Below, in pieces: positions 4,665 to 49,206 of a stretch of 64,000 bases of DNA; position 1 is the stretch's first letter, and each line of letters starts with the position of its first letter. The notes beneath the pieces are model-generated. The model did not search any database and was not told the origin of the DNA. It was given only the letters and a program-made list of their open reading frames with translations. The DNA comes from Macrophomina tecta (taxonomy: Eukaryota > Ascomycota > Dothideomycetes > Botryosphaeriales > Botryosphaeriaceae). The stretch lies in assembly GCA_024180945.1 (NCBI GenBank), contig JAKSGN010000007.1, positions 3,038,001 through 3,102,000 on the forward strand, read 5' to 3'. The position numbers and the translations under genes are program-made.

Positions 4665-6958
4665 TCAACTCCTCTCTCTCGCCAGCTCAACGCACTTGGC
4701 CGCCGCCTCATCGAAGCCGTCGTACGCATACACCTTCAGTCCACTCTCAGCTACTATCCTCTGCCCCTCAGCCTCGTTCGTGCCCCTCAACCGCACGACG
4801 ACAGGGACCCCCTTTTCCTCCAGGCCCAGCTCGCGGAACGCCAGCAATATCCCCCGCGCGATCATGTCGCACAGCGTCAGCCCGCCGAAGATGTTGACGA
4901 ATATAACGCGTACGCGCGCGTCGGCCAGCAGCAGCTCGAAGGAGCGCTTAACCGTCTCGGCCGTCGCCTTTCCGCCCGTGTCGAGGAAGTTGGCGGCGCG
5001 GCCGTGGTGCGGGGGCAGCGCCAACGCGTCGACCGTGTTCATGGCCAGCCCCGCGCCGTTGACGAGCGTGCCGATGTTGTGCGCGGACGGGTCGGTCGAC
5101 GAGAGCCCCAGCTTGACGTACACGATGCCGTGGGCTTCGGCGGAGAGTTCGTGCGGGTCGATGGCGCCGGGAGAGGTGTCGCGCAGCGCGTGCAGGGCGC
5201 CATGCCGGTTGGTGGAGCGGAATGCTGCGTCGTCGAAGGTGAAGGCGGGCGAGTATATGAGGAGGCCGTCGGCGGTGGCGGAGATGGCAACGTGCGTGGA
5301 CAGTGAGACGGCTTCGTAGGTTTGGAAGAGCGTCCAGAGCGTCTGCAGGAGCTGGTGCGTCGTCGCTTTGGCGGTGGGCGGCGCGGCGTCGAGTTGGAGG
5401 TGCTCGAGGGCGCGGGTGAGGGTCTCCTGAGTGGGCCCGGCGCGGTAATCGAAGGGGATGTAGCGCGCGCGGGCATGGATGTCACGGGGGTGTGTTGAGG
5501 GGGAGACGACGAAAGCCGGGGAGCGTGTGGAGCGATCGATGGTCACGCAGACGTAGCGGGAGTCTTCTTTCTCGTTGGGTTCGCGGGTGGTTTGGATTCC
5601 GTGCTTGGAGAGGAGTTGAGAGGCTTGGGAGACGTTGAGATGAAGGCCGCGACGTTGGGTATTGGTGTTCATGGAGGGGCAGGTGGATGACGGCAGGCGC
5701 GGACGGTGCGAGGTGTGGTAGCCACGACGTTGGCTTACTGAATTCGAGGCGGATGATTGCTGCGCGGAGTTTTGAGTACGGTTTTGCTTCCTTTCTTGTT
5801 GGATTTCCTTACGATCTTTTGCACGTTTCTTCCACTCTCAGCAAGGAGATCCTTCATCACCTCTCCGAATTTGGCTGGGTGGTCCACCATGACCGCGCCA
5901 GCATCCCCAAGGATCCTAGCCTTCGCCTCTGCCAGGTTCTCACCGGGGGCAGGCCAAGCACCCGCATGACCCATTACTCGGTTCGGGGGAGCAAGCTTGC
6001 CGCCAACGAGTGACGCAATCGGCCTATGATGAGATCAGCATGCTTCGATGCCCGCCTTTGGAGTGTTGCTTTACTTCGGATTGGCAGTGCGCTTCCTGTA
6101 ATCCTTGATCCACTCAGCAGCCTCCTCTTCGGCGCGGCCACCGACTTCACCAACCACAATGATGCCCTCGGTGTCCGGATCATGCTCAAATATCTTTAGA
6201 GCATCGACAAAGTTGGTGCCAGCAATGGGATCGCCACCCATCGAAATACAGAGGCTCTGGCCGAGTCCTGCACGGGTAAGTGAAGCTACGGTCTCGTAGC
6301 TGAGAGTACCAGATTTGGCAACAACGCCAACATGGCCGGGAGAAAAGCAAGGCAGTGGCTGAAATCCGATTCGACAGCGTCCAATCGCTGAGATGATTCC
6401 CGGAGCATTGGCGCCTACGAGTCTTGATTTAGATTGGGTGTTCAATATGGAGTGAATCTGGAAGAGGTTAGTAGACAGCCTACGTTGACGTATCTCAGGT
6501 CATCTCCGTACTCTCAAGATATCATGTAAAGGGATATGTTCGGCAACGGCCACGATCAGCGGTATTTCTGCCTCAATGGCCTCCTCGATGGCTGCCGTGG
6601 CCTGATGAGCAGCAACATATATGCCAGTAGCATCGGGCTTCAATTTCTCCTGGGCAGCCCGTACGCTTGGAAATACAGGGAGCCCCAAATGCTCGCCTTC
6701 GCTTCCTGGCTTAACACCGCCAACGATATTAGTCCCCCATGCAAGGGACTCTTTGGCGTTGGCCGTGGCCTGACGGCCGGTGAAACCCTGGAAGATAACT
6801 CGCGTATGCCGGCCAATCTTCAAGTTTGGGATCGTGTCTTCGTAAGATGGTCTAGAACAAGTGGAGGAAAAGGCAGCACATAGGAGAGGGCGCCGAGAGA
6901 GACGTATGCTCCGCGCGGAGGCACACGGCGTCATTGATGTGAGGCGATGAGACAGCAT
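4665..6958 (-). CDS. Fused alpha-beta succinyl-CoA synthetase-like protein
   Basis: Four exons fit phase perfectly: 6958-6512, 6457-6075, 6023-5813 and 5759-4665 (711 residues). The alpha half (to about residue 347) has a Ser/Arg-rich, mitochondrial-like N-terminus, the CoA-binding GFTGRQATANAKESL block, SGTLSYETV, GGDPIAGTNFVDAL and MGHAGAW, which keeps the phosphohistidine of alpha subunits. The beta half starts with an RRGLHLNVSQASQLLSKHGI helix and keeps LVNGAGLAMNTVDAL, ANFLDTGGKATAETV, VNIFGGLTLCDMIA and PVVVRLRGTNEAEG. About 75 residues of the usual ATP-grasp lobe, including the ATP-binding lysine and glycine loop, are absent. The 53-base intron 5812-5760 (GTAAGG...GCAG) joins the halves in frame. 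Without that splice the alpha frame stops at 5735, so two separate genes remain possible. The role is uncertain; it may be regulatory or CoA-ligase-related rather than a normal TCA enzyme. Confidence 0.78.
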
Positions 6959-37764: not shown

Positions 37765-39180
37765 CTACCAGTACATGAGCCAGCCTGTCTCTGCGCCGAA
37801 CCATCGCCTCGCCAGTCTCGCTCCGCTTTCAGTCGGCTGGCTGAACGCCACTTTCCCCTTGCGTATCCGCTTTGTGTCCTGGCTGGAGTAATAGCCGCAA
37901 AAATCACGGGCCGCGGCGTCGAGCAGGGCGGTCGCGACGCCGTGATGGCGGTGGGAGGACGAGACCCAGATGCGGGAGATGCCGAGGTGGGCTGGCAGGG
38001 AGGTTGGGGAGGTGGTTATTGGGGATGTGTTAGCTTCTGTTGTTGGTGCAACGGCTAGTTCTTCCTCGGTGGGGGGTTGAGGGGAGTCATCTGAGGGCGT
38101 CGTGTTGGTCCCGACTATGGACGTCTTGACGGAGTTTGTGGCGTCTGTGGGCGGAGTTCCGACCCGGTATGCTTCGCTAATGCGTTCTCCGAGGCAGAGG
38201 CCTATACACTTCGAGCCCCTGACATAGATGTATGCCTTGAAGCGATCTGCGCGCAACGTTGGCTCTTCCCGTTCCTTTTCCGCGCTGCAGTCATTCGTTG
38301 TGCCAGATCTCAGTGGCTTCGGCCCGGCCTCGTCTTGGGCCTTCGATGCGTCTCGTTCTTCACTCTCCTCTTCTCTTCCTTTGACAACAACTTGTCCCCA
38401 CAACTCCTCCTCCGGAATCTCCACTGCCCCCAGCTCCCTCTCCACGACGTCCAACACCCTCCTTACCCGCGTCTTCGCCGCAGCCCTATCTCTCCTCCCC
38501 ACTGCAACGATCACGTCTCCATCAATGCCCTTCTCCCAAACGACCTCACCAGTTCCTTTGGCCGCACCGCTACCGCCCCTCGCGAACACCTTCCCCACAT
38601 CCACACCACCGACATTCATAGCATGGAACCGCTTATGCAGTGCTAAATCCTCCGCATTCGACGGAACATAAGCCATTCCGCACGTCTTACACGTCTTCTG
38701 CACGGGCGTTGTGCCCAGGTCTAGTTGGAGCTGCGTCAGACGGCGCGGCTGGGGCTTCTTCTCCTTCACCGCCGGCGCCGGGTCTGGAACTGCGTTGGCG
38801 CTGGCACTTGTGCTGCGTTGCTCGGCGAGAGGCTGCGGGATTGGTTTGGCGACGCCATCGGATCGCGCTGCTGCCTTGCGCGCGAAGAAGGCGAATGTCG
38901 GACGGCGCTTCGGCAGCGGTAGCGGGGAGGTCGAGGTGTCTGTCGTGGGCATCGGTGGGGGAGATGAGGGAGGAGTGGATGGAGGGAGCGTGGGATCGCT
39001 GGAGCCGCGGGGCGGACTGGTGCACGGGGTCGAGGGAGCGTCGCTGCGGAGGAGAGGGTCGGCGTCGCGGTGTGGTTGGAGCGCGTCGTCTTCATCGCTG
39101 GATGAGAGGATGCGGCGGCGTTTGACAGGCGGTTCGGAGGCGAGGTAAGTGGATCTCCTGAGCCGCGAATAGGTCTTCAT
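37765..39180 (-). CDS. ECO1: Sister-chromatid cohesion acetyltransferase Eco1 (ESCO)
   Basis: Acetyltransferase that acetylates Smc3 to lock cohesin during S phase. It is intronless, with 471 residues from the ATG at 39180; fungal Eco1 proteins also begin with a TYSR motif, as here (MKTYSRLRRS). The first 150 residues are disordered and contain KRRPTFAFFARK and a PCNA-interaction-like RLTQLQLDLG at about 155. A C2H2 finger follows (KTCKTCGMAYVPSNAEDLALHKRFHAMN). The acetyl-CoA domain has GISRIWVSSSHRHHGVATALLDA and the catalytic end FSQPTESGARLARRWFG. All family landmarks are in order. It is divergent from a GNAT gene. Upstream in-frame codons exist but belong to the 5' region. Confidence 0.94.
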   Translation of the reverse strand: MKTYSRLRRSTYLASEPPVKRRRILSSSDEDDALQPHRDADPLLRSDAPSTPCTSPPRGSSDPTLPPSTPPSSPPPMPTTDTSTSPLPLPKRRPTFAFFARKAAARSDGVAKPIPQPLAEQRSTSASANAVPDPAPAVKEKKPQPRRLTQLQLDLGTTPVQKTCKTCGMAYVPSNAEDLALHKRFHAMNVGGVDVGKVFARGGSGAAKGTGEVVWEKGIDGDVIVAVGRRDRAAAKTRVRRVLDVVERELGAVEIPEEELWGQVVVKGREEESEERDASKAQDEAGPKPLRSGTTNDCSAEKEREEPTLRADRFKAYIYVRGSKCIGLCLGERISEAYRVGTPPTDATNSVKTSIVGTNTTPSDDSPQPPTEEELAVAPTTEANTSPITTSPTSLPAHLGISRIWVSSSHRHHGVATALLDAAARDFCGYYSSQDTKRIRKGKVAFSQPTESGARLARRWFGAETGWLMYW

Positions 39181-39664
39181 GACGGTCGTGGGAAGGGCGC
39201 GCTGCGCCGGGGCGGTGCGGCTACGAATTGAGAGATGTGGATTGCGGGAGGAGACGCGTCGCGTCGAGGGCGTGACGGACCACGCGGCGAGGGAATGGAA
39301 GGTGGGCCGACCGAGCGTTTGCCGAGGAGGCTGGTTGGCGCATCTCTCGCTGCCGTCATCAATCCTTCTCTCACCCCTCGGTTCCAGAAGCCCAAAGACG
39401 GGGTGCACTGTCGGCACGGCCGCTGTAACACCGCTGTACACCCATAGGCCCAGCTGCATGTAAGATACGATAATGTCACCTTCCTTTTCCACTGTGGCGC
39501 TTCATCGTGACTCGGGAGAATGACTGGTCGACGGCTTCAGCTGCGGATAAATCAGTCCTTATGTACCTTTCACGTCAATCTTCAGCTGCTCATTCCTTGG
39601 AACATCCCTCCCTCACTGTTCAATAGCAACGACCAGAGCAACGTGAACCAGTAGCACGGATCCA
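39181..39664. promoter_or_regulatory. Bidirectional promoter ECO1 / GNAT
   Basis: A 484-base gap between divergent starts. The ECO1 frame stays open into it, but no family sequence lies there. No clear TATA box. Confidence 0.45.
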
Positions 39665-42311: not shown

Positions 42312-43223
42312 GTGGCTGGGTCCAATGGCATCACCTTGTAATTTTTTTTTTCTGCGCTTTATTTCCCCCCCATGTGTATCAAGATATCCCCAGGCCTGGC
42401 GCACGGAGCAGAGGCACTTCCCTGAGGAGTGCTTATCAGCGAATTGTTCATATTTTATGGCACTTTCTGAGCACGCTCTGGGCGTGAGGTTTTTTTTTTT
42501 TTTTTTTTTTTTTTGGAAATTGTATATCCATGCCTCCCATGCAGGCCAGCGCCGATTTCCCTCCGCTGGTTGCATACGTCACAGTTCCGATTCTATGCAA
42601 GCCGAAGGAACGCATCGGCCCACGAGCACTGTGGGAGAGTGCGGGCTGGGAGTGCGGACGAGTGCTTCAGCGCCCCACCCATATTCGCGCATACCGCCGC
42701 TACACTGTTGCATCCATCCTTGCACGCCACTTTATTTGGGTTTCCGGAGCACCTCCGATCCACAAGGCACTACATATTCACCGCTGAATACTCATGTAAT
42801 GATTCTGTGCCTAGTCCCGCGGCGCCACCCTGGCGCGCAAAGCCCATCGCCCGCTCATCACGCAGGTGTCCCACCGTAGAGATAAGTGCTGTGAACGGTG
42901 AGGAGTCTGCCTCCAACCAATCCAAGCTGAATGTAGCACCAACTACCTGGAGACGAACCCAGTGCCTTATGGTGTGTTCATGGCGGGATTCTTTCAAGGG
43001 AAAGCCTCAAAGTAAATATTTCTGTACTTACTCATGACAACCACCCCACCCACAACCAAAAACTTTCAAGAAATGCATACGCTATTGTATAGATCGCATC
43101 ATGACAGAAGTCGCCAGGCTTTGCCCACGCAGTACACACACACAGGCCTGCGGTCTGTGTCTATAGGAGCATTGAGCGGGTGGGAGACGAGCACGGGTAA
43201 CAAAATCAAAAAGAAATGAGTGG
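42312..43223. other. Intergenic, with a long T run
   Basis: About 900 bases without a recognisable gene, including a 25-base T run at 42490-42514. Confidence 0.45.
42490..42514 (+). repeat. Poly-T run (25)
   Basis: Uninterrupted T homopolymer in non-coding DNA. It could be the tail of an old retroposed insertion on the other strand, but no insertion body is visible. Confidence 0.7.
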
Positions 43224-43359
43224 TGAGGACGGTGCGATTTGAACGCACAGCCTTCAGGAATTTCCATGAACTGGAATCTGACGCTGTTTATCGTTAGATT
43301 TGAGTCTCTTCGGGGAACTTGTGAGTTATGACTTACCGCTACCGTTGCGCCACGCCCCC
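43224..43359 (-). tRNA. tRNA-Trp (CCA), copy 1, with two introns
   Basis: On the minus strand the gene begins GGGGGCG and ends CGTCCTC plus discriminator A, a seven-pair acceptor stem. The A box reads TGGCGCAACGG. The D stem is GCGC/GCGC, but its 3' strand is split after GCG by a 53-base insert (43284-43336). The anticodon loop is TTCCAG with anticodon CCA at 43274-43272. A canonical 11-base intron follows position 37 (43270-43260), with TGGAA complementary to the anticodon side. The T arm is GTGCG TTCAAAT CGCAC. A T-rich terminator follows the 3' end. In the mature form the anticodon stem has four pairs plus an A31-C39 mismatch, shared with copy 2. Confidence 0.9.
43284..43336 (-). other. 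Ectopic D-arm intron of tRNA-Trp copy 1 (spliceosomal-like)
   Basis: A 53-base insert in the D stem of the tRNA. It begins GTAAGT, has TCTAAC ten bases before the end region, and ends ACAG. Removing it restores GCGC pairing and a normal tRNA-Trp. The signals equal those of mRNA introns in this window. No bulge-helix-bulge pairing of its ends was found by eye. Confidence 0.75.
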
Positions 43360-44103
43360 AACTGTGAAATTATTGTGGGTGACAAGGTAAATATACAGTA
43401 AGAAATTGCGCGCAATCTGAGAGGCCGCTTAAACCGAATGCAAATGCGGGGCATGGTGGACGCTGGCCTTAGTCATCCCGACATACGTTTCAGGTTCTTG
43501 CTGTGCAGGCTTGAGGGCGTGCGAACTTCAAACTGTCGAATGCACTACGCTCGACAATCTCCCGCACCGAGCTCATACCGCGCCGAGTTTGCCATTAGCA
43601 ATTCAATATTATCTTTTCTTTTGCACCTTCCTTGGGTCCATCTCGAGAACCGGCAACCGGTGTGTCCTCGTACACTCGAACCCCTCTTCAGCAGAATCGC
43701 TAGGGGTTTTTCGGTCACTTCGGCCGGACTCTTCTGCATAAGTGGTCTGCTGTAAAAAAAAAAAAAAAAAAAAAAGGTTCGCAGCAGTGACCGCGAAAAT
43801 AGACTATGAGTATTTGAAGACATCTTGTCCGAAACACATGCCCTCATTAGTTGTGCACGCCCGTCCAGACGAATGCTTCGACCCGATGCTGTTACGTATA
43901 TCATTTTGCAATTCTATCGGATCCCGCCTCGTAGCATAGACGGCTACGCTTGGAGACAGTTGTTCCTCTCGGCCTGCTCTTCACTTGTCCGTCAAGCTAG
44001 CGGAGCATCCGGGCCTAGACCGGATAGTCTCCACCCGACGCCGCAGAGGAGAGTCATTCAGAGCATGCAGCTGACCAGCCATAAGAAATTGCAAAAAAGG
44101 ATA
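43360..44103. other. Interval between the two tRNA-Trp genes
   Basis: About 740 bases with no gene recognised. It contains a 22-base A run at 43754-43775. Confidence 0.45.
43754..43775 (+). repeat. Poly-A run (22)
   Basis: Uninterrupted A homopolymer between the two tRNA genes. No retroelement body is seen next to it. Confidence 0.7.
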
Positions 44104-44248
44104 TGAGGACGGTGCGATTTGAACGCACAGCCTTCAGGATATTCCAAGATAGGATCTGGAATCTGACGCTATGAAAGGAATTAGTATTGTGAGTCTTCAG
44201 GCGAGTCGAGTCAGGGCGTGCTTACCGCTACCGTTGCGCCACGCCCCC
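44104..44248 (-). tRNA. tRNA-Trp (CCA), copy 2, with two introns
   Basis: Exon sequence is the same as copy 1: GGGGGCG acceptor strand, TGGCGCAACGG A box, GTGCG TTCAAAT CGCAC T arm, CGTCCTC 3' strand and discriminator A, followed by a T6 terminator. The canonical intron after position 37 is 16 bases here (44055-like layout at 44155-44140) and again carries TGGAA facing the anticodon. The D-stem insert (44169-44225) is 57 bases. The two copies lie 745 bases apart in the same orientation. Their intron sequences and flanks differ while the exons match, so the exons are under selection and both genes are probably functional. Confidence 0.9.
44169..44225 (-). other. Ectopic D-arm intron of tRNA-Trp copy 2 (spliceosomal-like)
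   Basis: A 57-base insert at exactly the same D-stem position as in copy 1. It begins GTAAGC, contains TACTAAT, then a pyrimidine tract TTCCTTTC, and ends ATAG. Apart from a short GAAGACTCACAA-like stretch its sequence differs from copy 1, but the splice-signal positions are kept. Confidence 0.75.
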
Positions 44249-45692: not shown

Positions 45693-46383
45693 GCGCCTGG
45701 CTTCCCATTGTGCCGCACCAAGATAGCTGGCAGGCTACGGCCGGAATTGTGCAGGAGCAGGGCGTCCGCGACACCGGGCTGAAATTGAGTCGTGCGCAGC
45801 GCCGGCCACATGCCAAAACTAGAGCGGGGCACCACGCCGACGGTGACGATGGCTCTAGGCAGGCGAAGTTGGTTGCGGCGTCATGGGCGAGAGAGAGTCT
45901 GCCCAGGCAACCCTCCGCTCGAAGATGCTGCGCAGGGCCGGGCGGGCTGGTGACGGCGACACCGGCGGGGAGAAGGTGTCGCAGAAAAAGGGCGCAGGCA
46001 GGCGGCGACGGTGCTGGTTTGAGAGCGCTCGGTGGTCGGCGATCGGCGCAATGAACGGGCTGGCAGGCGAGCTCCAACATGGACCTGCAGCTGCCTACCC
46101 TTCTGCCTGTGCTGCTTCTCGCCATCCGAGGCGGAGCTGCAGCTGCCAGGCGGCAGACGCCTTGACTCACGGCGATCCTTCGTTCGATGGTGTCCGCTTT
46201 GGTTTGCCGCAGCGCACGCTGTTCTCCGCATGCAGCAAGCTCGCCGCTTCCACGCCCTATAAGCAGCCGTGTGCCTGCCTTTCGCAGCTTTCTCCCCATC
46301 ACCCCCTCGTCTCTTCTGCGCTCCCGCCCCGTACTCCCAGGTGAGCGATTTCCCTGCGACTCGTGCCCCATCCATCTGTTAAC
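45693..46383. promoter_or_regulatory. Upstream region of the rvt gene
   Basis: About 690 bases, GC-rich. TATAAG at 46258-46263 lies 121-126 bases before the rvt start and is followed by a C/T-rich leader, so it may be the core promoter. Confidence 0.45.
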
Positions 46384-49206
46384 ATGGACGCCAGAGGTCG
46401 AGGAAGAGGACGAGCCGGCTCCAGAGCTAGAGGTCTCCTCCGTGGAAGAGGTCGAGGTGTCCCTCCCTTCTCCATTCCCTTCTCCACAATCCGCTCTGCG
46501 CAGTCTTTCGCCGCTGTCAACAAATCCACCGACATGTCTGGAGGTGCCGTTACTTCCACCTTGCGCCATGTCACAGACCGCAAGCTTGCCAAGCTTGCAG
46601 AGCACCAGAAGTCCTTCGAAGCCCAGAAGGCCGAGTTGCTCCATGCCTGTGCAACCGAGTCCGATGCCGCCGAAAAAGTCCGCATCCTGATGGCTGGTTT
46701 TAAGAAAAACGGCATCCCCTACAGCCAGGGAGAGGCTTCCGCCAAGAACATCGAGGGGTTTCTTGAGCAGGCCCGCCATGACCCGTCCGTATCGGCTACC
46801 TTGCTCCAGGATTGGCGCGCTTGGCTGGAGCAGAACCTCGACATGCATACCGACAAGTACAACTATGCCGATCTCTTCGGACGTCTGGTCACCGAGTGGA
46901 TCGAGAACCCGAGCGACGCCATGGACGAGCTCAACGCTCATAGCGCTGCCGCCGCCACCACTCACTCCCGCCCTCCCAGCGATGAGGCAGAGTCATTTGA
47001 TATGATTGGCCGCGAGGAGATGCACGAGCAGCGCAAAATGCTAGAGAAATTCATCTTCAATGAGCCCACCATCGACACTGCTGCCATCAAGAAGTACCTC
47101 GACGATCTCTTCATCCCTGTTCCGAAAGCCAGAGGTGCCCAAAAGACTTCGCTGGAGCAACTTCGCTACAACATTTCTCACTGGGATGGCATCATCCATG
47201 TGGATGAGGACACAATCCGCTCAGCCATCCAAGGCGTCCTGAAGGCCGATCTCTTCACCGGCCCCAAGCGGGAAGTGCTCGTTGACCTCAAGTCGCGTCC
47301 GGAAGTGATCAAGGAAATGGTTGATGTTCTGCGCATGGATCTCGACTCTTTGAAGAGCTGGAACTGGCCTGGTCCCGTTCCGGTCCTGTTGCGCCGGCAG
47401 TTGAATGGCAAGTACCGCGCATACATGGACGAGGAGGTCCACACGGCCATTCTGGTCCACGTTGTTGGTGCCCATCTCGCTGTCATGCTGAGGAATGCTT
47501 TTATGGCGCACTTCAATTCCGGCGCATGGGTCCAAGCTCCTTACCGCGCAATGACAAGGGTGGACAGGCAGCGCCGCCATTACTTTCTTGGTAAGAAAAA
47601 CGTGCAGGCCGATCGTTTTTCGGTCCGCGAAATGCGGCGTTCAACTTTCCGCGACGACTGGTTCATGACGCAGATGCCTACCACTGTGGCAGAGGGAAAT
47701 CGCGACTACGGCGACGAAGCCTCGGATTCAGATGAAAACGCCAAGAGCCCGCTCGAAATCAAGCAATCTCTGCTCCGCCTTGCCACCACCGAGATGCTCG
47801 TCAACAAGAAGCTGTATGGCGAATTCACAGTCTTTACCAGCGACTTCAAGTGGTTTGGCCCTTCGATTCCCCATGCAACCATGTACACTGTTCTTGAGTA
47901 CTTCAATCTCGACCAGCGCTGGCTGGATTTCATCAAGAAATTCCTCGCAGCTCCTCTTGCCTTCACTCAGGATGGTTCAGCTGCAGAGCCAAAGGTCCGC
48001 AAGAACGGCATTCCCATGGGCCACGTGCTGGCAGACGCTCTTGGCGAGTCGGTCCTCTTCTGTCTTGACTTCGCTGTTCACCGCAAGACCAGTGGAGCCG
48101 TACTGTACCGTTTCCACGATGACCTGTGGTTCTGGGGTCAAGAGAGCACCTGTGTGCAAGCGTGGCAGACGCTGCAGGAGTTCTCGGCAATTATGGGGCT
48201 GCAGCTGAACGAAGATAAGACGGCAGCCGCGAAAGTTGTCAGCTCTGACAACCACAGCTTAGCTCCGTTGCCCAAGAAGTTACCTCGGGGCGTGATACGT
48301 TGGGGCTTCTTGAAGCTCAATCCTGAGGAGAGCCGTTGGGTCATCGACCAAGTCCAGGTTGACGACCACATCAAGGAGCTGAAGCGTCAGTTGGAAGCGT
48401 GCCGCAGTGTCTTCGCCTGGGTACAAGCCTGGAACAGCTACGTCGCACGCTTCTTCACGACCAATTTCGGGCAGCCAGCTTTCTGCCTCGGCCGCGAACA
48501 TCTCGACATGTGCATTGAGACTTTCGAACGGATCCAGCGCTCTCTCTTCACTGAGTCGGGTGCTGGAAATGTCGCAGATCACCTACGTGGGGTCATCACA
48601 GAGCGGTTTTCTGGAGCCACGGCCATCAACTGCGGGCGTCCCATCCCCGACGCTTTCTTCTACTTTCCCGTTGAGCTCGGTGGCCTTGGTTTGCTAAACC
48701 CTTTCGTACAGCTGTACGCCATGAGGGAATCCTCGCGCAAGGATCCAGCCGAGGATCTCGAGCAGGCTCTCCTTCGTGAGAAAGAAGCTTACGAGGAGTT
48801 CAAAGAACGTTTCGAGGCCGGCGAAGTCCCCTTTGACGAAACCACGCCGAAGAACCTTGAGAGCGAGCCGTTCATGAGCTTGGAAGAGTACATGCGCTTC
48901 TCGGAGCAGACTTCAGAGCAGTTAAGCGACGCGTACTCGACCCTCCTTAGTCCAACGGATGAGGCCATGGTCGACCATTCTCCTACAGTGGATACGGCTA
49001 TGAACAAGCTCCCGTCCGGAAAATACAACACCAGTGGGTTCAGTAACAGTTGGCTTGAGCTCAAACCGTACTGGAAGTGGATCGTTGCGCTGTATTTTGG
49101 CGAGACGGAGAAGCGGTTTGGTGGCCTGGCCATCTGTGAGAAGGGTTTGCTGCCGCTGGGGCTTGTCAGCATTCTGCGCAGCGAGAGGGTCAGGTGGCAG
49201 GGATGA
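46384..49206 (+). CDS. Stand-alone reverse-transcriptase-related protein (rvt family)
   Basis: A single 940-residue frame with no introns. The start at 46384 opens an RGG-like basic tail (RGRGRGRAGSRARG); an alternative ATG is at 46534. An N-terminal helical, coiled-coil-like region runs to about 250. The polymerase core follows: motif A FTSDFKWFG (Asp near 487), motif B KNGIPMGHVLADALGESV (about 541-557), motif C YRFHDDLWFWG (Asp pair near 579-580), then LQLNEDKTAA (motif D/E) and a long C-terminal domain. There is no endonuclease, integrase, gag, LTR, poly-A tail or target-site duplication, so it is not an active retroelement. This fits the domesticated single-copy rvt genes described in fungi and some bacteria (Gladyshev and Arkhipova), which keep the catalytic aspartates. 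The cellular role is unresolved. Confidence 0.88.
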   Translation: MDARGRGRGRAGSRARGLLRGRGRGVPPFSIPFSTIRSAQSFAAVNKSTDMSGGAVTSTLRHVTDRKLAKLAEHQKSFEAQKAELLHACATESDAAEKVRILMAGFKKNGIPYSQGEASAKNIEGFLEQARHDPSVSATLLQDWRAWLEQNLDMHTDKYNYADLFGRLVTEWIENPSDAMDELNAHSAAAATTHSRPPSDEAESFDMIGREEMHEQRKMLEKFIFNEPTIDTAAIKKYLDDLFIPVPKARGAQKTSLEQLRYNISHWDGIIHVDEDTIRSAIQGVLKADLFTGPKREVLVDLKSRPEVIKEMVDVLRMDLDSLKSWNWPGPVPVLLRRQLNGKYRAYMDEEVHTAILVHVVGAHLAVMLRNAFMAHFNSGAWVQAPYRAMTRVDRQRRHYFLGKKNVQADRFSVREMRRSTFRDDWFMTQMPTTVAEGNRDYGDEASDSDENAKSPLEIKQSLLRLATTEMLVNKKLYGEFTVFTSDFKWFGPSIPHATMYTVLEYFNLDQRWLDFIKKFLAAPLAFTQDGSAAEPKVRKNGIPMGHVLADALGESVLFCLDFAVHRKTSGAVLYRFHDDLWFWGQESTCVQAWQTLQEFSAIMGLQLNEDKTAAAKVVSSDNHSLAPLPKKLPRGVIRWGFLKLNPEESRWVIDQVQVDDHIKELKRQLEACRSVFAWVQAWNSYVARFFTTNFGQPAFCLGREHLDMCIETFERIQRSLFTESGAGNVADHLRGVITERFSGATAINCGRPIPDAFFYFPVELGGLGLLNPFVQLYAMRESSRKDPAEDLEQALLREKEAYEEFKERFEAGEVPFDETTPKNLESEPFMSLEEYMRFSEQTSEQLSDAYSTLLSPTDEAMVDHSPTVDTAMNKLPSGKYNTSGFSNSWLELKPYWKWIVALYFGETEKRFGGLAICEKGLLPLGLVSILRSERVRWQG

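Follow-up and report, generated by a model that had tools for sequence, protein, structure and literature searches.

Spliceosomal introns are taken to be a property of genes transcribed by RNA polymerase II (Pol II), with the small structured RNAs U6 (a snRNA) and also U3 (a snoRNA) known as exceptions, and the introns of eukaryotic tRNAs are assigned to the tRNA endonuclease. In fungi, U6 genes interrupted by introns reportedly occur beyond Schizosaccharomyces pombe, as surveyed by Canzler and colleagues. The present locus, as interpreted here, would resemble the U6 gene of S. pombe, in which the spliceosome removes an mRNA-type intron from a small structured RNA made by RNA polymerase III (Pol III) (excerpts of PMC8917221). 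The two cases differ in their host: U6 is itself a component of the spliceosome, whereas the host found here, known from its sequence, is a tRNA that also bears an intron of the endonuclease type. The introns of fungal U3 snoRNA genes provide another point of comparison. Like those described here, they are GT-AG introns in which an RCTRAY motif precedes a YAG acceptor, at a mean distance of 15 nt, and they mostly lie in the 5' half of the small RNA and recur at a few positions; however, they have an average length of 92 nt, versus 53-68 nt here, and their host is a snoRNA (excerpts of PMC5832005). According to the same 2017 study of fungal U3, frequent interruption by an intron is so far known for no small structured RNAs other than U3 and U6 (PMC5832005).

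The paper on tRNAscan-SE 2.0 states that a eukaryotic tRNA gene has no more than one intron (PMC8450103). Insertions in the D or T arm of eukaryotic tRNAs mostly affect one of many synonymous genes, which are supposed to be pseudogenes, red algal and nucleomorph tRNAs being the exceptions (excerpts of PMC4090602). Indeed, in Cyanidioschyzon merolae and in nucleomorphs, as at the present locus, several introns can interrupt a single eukaryotic tRNA gene, one of them located in the D arm (excerpts of PMC9602550 and PMC4090602), and one tRNA of C. merolae combines introns in the D arm, the anticodon region and the T arm (excerpt of PMC9602550). In this alga, a decisive role is ascribed to the bulge-helix-bulge fold and to the tRNA endonuclease (excerpt of PMC4090602), whereas here the full fold is missing at the D arm and spliceosomal signals are present. 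The canonical tRNA introns, located between nucleotides 37 and 38, are also found in the tRNA-Trp genes described below, with their bulge-helix-bulge; the D-arm insert lies elsewhere and does not show the full fold. The original prediction knew of no described fungal example of such an intron, and the literature search agrees with it, no published spliceosomal intron in a tRNA gene being found among the matches listed, in a search that left most subscription papers outside; excerpts of PMC13130702 contained nothing on this subject either. The class of intron is known; the host gene is new.

The window, i.e. the whole stretch of 64,000 nt of Macrophomina tecta DNA that was analysed, carries two tRNA-Trp(CCA) genes, both on the minus strand and both interrupted twice. 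The first one, copy 1 (43224..43359), spans 136 nt including both introns. Its D-arm insert of 53 nt (43284..43336; GTAAGT...TCTAACGATAAACAG) is located between nucleotides 24 and 25, in the 3' strand of the D stem, and is flanked by AGCG and CGTC; it starts with GTAAGT (43336-43331), carries a CTAAC motif starting at -14 from its end and terminates with CAG. The second intron, located in the anticodon loop at 37/38 (43260..43270; 11 nt), is a canonical tRNA intron with a bulge-helix-bulge. Downstream of the gene, a spacer of 11 nt precedes a T5 run resembling a Pol III terminator (43208..43212). Copy 2 (44104..44248; 145 nt including both introns) is organised in the same way, with a D-arm intron of 57 nt (44169..44225; GTAAGC, CTAAT starting at -16, TAG end), an anticodon-loop intron of 16 nt in which the bulge-helix-bulge is also present (44140..44155) and, after a spacer of 5 nt, a terminator-like T6 run (44093..44098).

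When the 54.1-Mb assembly of the same fungus was searched by BLAST with the copy 1 gene, the window pair and a single additional locus were recovered. This third copy, located outside the window on contig C20 (579256-579418), harbours a D-arm insert of 68 nt at the identical site and an anticodon-loop intron of 23 nt at 37/38. The observation is therefore broader than first noted, as every tRNA-Trp gene copy that was found, two in the window and one outside it, carries the D-arm insert. All three genes possess an A box and a B box, and a run of five, six or five T begins 5-11 nt past their 3' end. Furthermore, none of them contains an internal TTTT, which gives weak support as 13% of the window segments of similar size contain TTTT.

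The effect of the inserts on tRNA detection was examined with ARAGORN. No tRNA was reported in the raw window, nor in copies 1 and 2 with both inserts kept, even when anticodon introns of 0-150 nt were permitted, and copy 3 with its D insert kept was called Glu or Asn, never Trp. After removal of both inserts, all three copies were recognised as tRNA-Trp(cca), with a cloverleaf and a CCA anticodon. With the D insert deleted and the anticodon intron kept, ARAGORN identified tRNA-Trp with an anticodon intron in copies 2 and 3, and Gly(tcc) in copy 1. The minimum-energy fold computed by ViennaRNA for the bare mature sequence is not a cloverleaf. The joined exons of all three copies also show an A31-C39 mismatch beside the anticodon loop, which may be tolerated, modified or edited. 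For copy 1, these results bear out what the original prediction had deduced from the letters: the tRNA is recognised as Trp(cca) only without the 53-nt insert (and without the anticodon intron), this insert carries GTAAGT, a branch motif and CAG on the minus strand with exact ends, and the gene also possesses an ordinary anticodon intron with its bulge-helix-bulge.

In all three D-arm inserts, a GTRNG-type donor and a YAG acceptor of the U2 type lie exactly at the ends of the insert. The donors are GTAAGT, GTAAGC and GTAGGG in copies 1, 2 and 3, respectively, that of copy 3 being weaker. The branch motifs are CTAAC, CTAAT and CTAAT, starting at -14, -16 and -16 from the end of the insert, and the acceptors are CAG, TAG and CAG. 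The original prediction had held that these are the signals of the protein-gene introns of the same region. A scan of the window for pairs of long reading frames joined only by removal of a GT-AG segment yielded 25 candidates distributed over 15 places. Five of them (at 6511, 18033, 30727, 59704 and 61524) were taken as clear introns, with lengths of 50-65 nt and a CTRAY motif at -14 to -18. The claim is upheld by this comparison, the D-arm inserts having their CTRAY at -14 to -16 and lengths of 53, 57 and 68 nt (the last slightly above the range of this small sample), with the reservation that the five mRNA introns are inferred and that their choice leaned on the CTRAY motif, which makes the comparison partly circular. 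A sixth protein-gene junction, recognised by eye in a gene that we take to be CCR4-like, has the form GTGAGT...GCTAAT...AAG. A wider frame-based search for introns returned many candidates devoid of signals and few with them, and was left out of the counts.

How often such a combination of signals arises by chance was estimated by scanning 104 kb on both strands for segments of 50-70 nt that begin with GTRRG, terminate with YAG and contain a CTAAY motif starting 12-18 nt from their end. Seven matches were obtained among 4,355,400 start/length combinations, two of them being the tRNA inserts of the window (the insert of copy 3 lies outside the scanned DNA). The five remaining matches, among which there are possibly true introns, correspond to a chance of about 1e-6 per fixed segment, for a pattern picked after the inserts had been seen and with exons that allow a one-base slide of the junction, i.e. 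two possible registers. As a proof in itself, motif scanning of open sequence was rejected, since the reversed control gave five matches versus seven in the real sequence and the enrichment is hardly visible. The weight of the signal match comes from elsewhere: the tRNA exons fix both ends of the insert, and all three inserts fit. A self-splicing intron of group I or group II was rejected, as lengths of 53-68 nt are too short for either class and no Rfam family of any kind reached its gathering score in the window.

These features make it very probable that a U2-type spliceosomal intron has settled in the D arm of a Pol III tRNA-Trp(CCA) gene, the spliceosome removing this intron and the tRNA endonuclease the anticodon intron. 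In the proposed scheme, a single Pol III transcript would carry both introns. The nuclear spliceosome would excise the D-arm intron by means of the branch A of CTAAC or CTAAT, which would restore the D stem, and the tRNA splicing endonuclease and the ligase would next remove the anticodon intron of 11-23 nt. Since cleavage by the endonuclease is measured from the folded body of the tRNA, the spliceosome is likely to act before it.

The original prediction had already raised the alternative that the tRNA endonuclease accepts an unusual site. The D-arm insert would then be an ectopic intron comparable to those of red algal nuclear tRNAs and of nucleomorph tRNAs, and its GT-AG appearance would be accidental. 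The endonuclease family, PF01974, is present in this fungus, with two matches in the genome, and anticodon-loop introns of up to 61 nt occur in 23 of the 50 other tRNA genes examined. D-arm introns are moreover known in C. merolae and nucleomorphs, as mentioned above. The fold expected for this enzyme was therefore sought at both sites. At the anticodon introns, which served as a positive control, a full bulge-helix-bulge is present in all three copies, the central helix pairing TTCC with GGAA or GGAG (four of four pairs). At the D-arm ends, no full bulge-helix-bulge was found in any of 16 registers, the best ones reaching 2, 3 and 3 of the four central pairs in copies 1, 2 and 3; of 2000 shuffled versions of the respective inserts, 286, 495 and 572 form all four. 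A clear bulge-helix-bulge at this place, which according to the original prediction would have made the insert an ordinary endonuclease intron, is thus not what is observed. Furthermore, the insert lies at 24/25 instead of the canonical 37/38 position.

The missing fold speaks against the endonuclease, short of excluding it. Indeed, the eukaryotic enzyme is held to use a ruler mechanism, measuring from the tRNA body, and the ectopic introns of the nucleomorph tRNAs of Guillardia theta are excised (excerpts of PMC4090602), many Guillardia nucleomorph tRNA introns having no defined bulge-helix-bulge (excerpt of PMC3978253). It is because of this mechanism and of these motif-less but excised introns that the endonuclease keeps a small chance at the D arm. 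However, all three inserts carry the splice signals, for which the chance expectation is about 1e-6 per insert, and these spliceosomal signals are what the inserts have in common, so that an endonuclease intron with an accidental GT-AG appearance is improbable.

The comparison of the three copies makes this last point more precise. Their exons are identical at 71 of 72 positions, a single one differing. The inserts have in common their position, donor, branch site and acceptor, and when compared whole with shuffled sequences, they are more similar than expected in each pair (p 0.0485 for copies 1 and 3, 0.0145 for copies 2 and 3 and 0.0015 for copies 1 and 2). Once the signals are left out, the similarity of the interiors falls to the level of shuffled sequences (p 0.64, 0.88 and 0.095 for the same pairs). 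No shared flanking sequence was detected between the tRNA-Trp loci of contig C20 and of contig C7, which carries the window pair. Signals that are kept while interiors diverge form, at the level of sequence, the pattern of spliced introns, unlike that of decaying genes. Between the two possibilities offered by the original prediction, an mRNA-type intron is therefore favoured over the endonuclease acting at a new site, owing to the signals kept in all three copies with diverged interiors and to the lack of a full bulge-helix-bulge. Given its identical position in the three copies, the D-arm intron was probably gained once, in an ancestral tRNA-Trp gene, and then copied with the gene.

Every fungus must possess a cytosolic tRNA-Trp(CCA). 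The three loci might nevertheless be dead copies, the working gene being either diverged from the queries used or absent from the 37-contig assembly, and the general view that D-arm and T-arm insertions of eukaryotes mostly hit one of many synonymous genes, supposed pseudogenes, would fit this idea (excerpts of PMC4090602). An intact tRNA-Trp(CCA) gene elsewhere, which the original prediction had set against itself, was thus looked for. BLAST of the assembly with the joined exons (E up to 10) returned the three known loci only, as did a search with a near-exact T-arm pattern. A pattern combining GGTAG, the CCA anticodon loop and the T-loop, with or without an anticodon intron, matched three places (two in the reversed control), none of which was accepted as a tRNA by ARAGORN; this pattern is confined to genes whose D-loop contains GGTAG. 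A looser tRNA-Trp pattern was dropped, its 359 matches being fewer than the 389 of the reversed control. The Rfam tRNA search of the genome scored 63 of 1323 first-look candidates and gave 60 matches. Globally, these non-exhaustive BLAST, pattern and Rfam searches of the 37-contig assembly found no uninterrupted tRNA-Trp gene.

The non-exhaustive tRNA survey, the confinement of the Trp pattern to GGTAG D-loops and a possibly incomplete assembly leave some room for a working gene elsewhere. However, all three copies found carry the insert. Furthermore, terminators, A boxes and B boxes are present, and the exons are nearly identical while the interiors of the inserts and the flanks of the C7 and C20 loci have diverged, a pattern that dead genes would not retain. 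It is thus improbable that these loci are dead. Given the need of the fungus for a cytosolic tRNA-Trp and the lack of an intact gene in these searches, it is simplest to assume that the three interrupted genes supply it.

Another explanation would be that the splice signals serve Pol II transcripts that read through the tRNA loci, the Pol III transcripts remaining unspliced. It is in line with the general knowledge that GT-AG introns normally belong to Pol II, and yet the cell would be left without any spliced tRNA-Trp, since the searches described above revealed no intact gene. A T5, T6 or T5 run lies downstream of the respective genes, and the position of the insert is tied to the tRNA, rather than to a host transcript, on two contigs between which no shared flanking sequence was detected. 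Such a role in read-through transcripts is hardly credible.

If the D-arm inserts are spliceosomal introns of Pol III transcripts, as proposed, the decoding of tryptophan would depend on the spliceosome because all three copies found carry the intron. It seems likely, from the copies recovered in this assembly, that all the cytosolic tRNA-Trp of the lineage would be made by the spliceosome and then by the tRNA endonuclease. This nuclear isotype would then be an obligate client of the spliceosome, and decoding would be coupled to the capacity for pre-mRNA splicing.

The presence of such introns in other Pol III genes was also considered. None of the 50 other tRNA genes examined, out of the 60 Rfam matches, carries a D-arm insert, in a search that favours uninterrupted genes; nine of the 50 are located on contig C17, which we take to be mitochondrial. 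The length of the anticodon intron varies among copies of one isotype in this set. In a search for related genes, the anticodon and D-arm patterns matched 0 and 7 stretches, respectively, in a collection of viral contigs, and the anticodon pattern matched 17 in a collection of genome contigs; by eye, none of these 24 is a tRNA. A single U6 snRNA gene was found (C37:3184782-3184880; 47 of 2731 candidates scored). It is full length, the whole model being matched in 99 nt, and an intron is ruled out for this gene. Since the U6 gene found is uninterrupted, there is no sign that such introns have entered Pol III genes in general.

If confirmed, a tRNA interrupted by introns of both kinds would show that tRNA precursors are accessible to the spliceosome, and would add a class of small RNAs to the clients of this machinery. 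Two questions would become testable, namely the access of Pol III transcripts to the spliceosome and the entry of spliceosomal introns into genes other than those of mRNAs. Furthermore, tRNA finders can overlook genes of this type, as illustrated by ARAGORN, which reports none in the window, and the isotype could therefore be reported as missing in related fungi.

One protein encoded in the window shares 99% identity, over 81% of the query, with a protein of Macrophomina phaseolina MS6, a Dothideomycete of the Botryosphaeriaceae; this single gene places the genome at or close to that species. For a VPS41-like exon of the window, the best matches, at 86-89%, came from metagenome sources, and among the 120 matches listed the one named organism was Aureobasidium melanogenum (60%), within length limits that excluded full-length relatives. 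The surroundings of the tRNA-Trp pair include, about 2 kb away, an open frame of 947 aa (46363-49206) in which a reverse transcriptase domain is recognised (RVT_1, E 2.5e-8) and which we assume may be a domesticated reverse transcriptase. An ordinary conserved gene with an ESCO-type cohesin acetyltransferase domain and a zinc finger (37765-39492) also lies near the locus.
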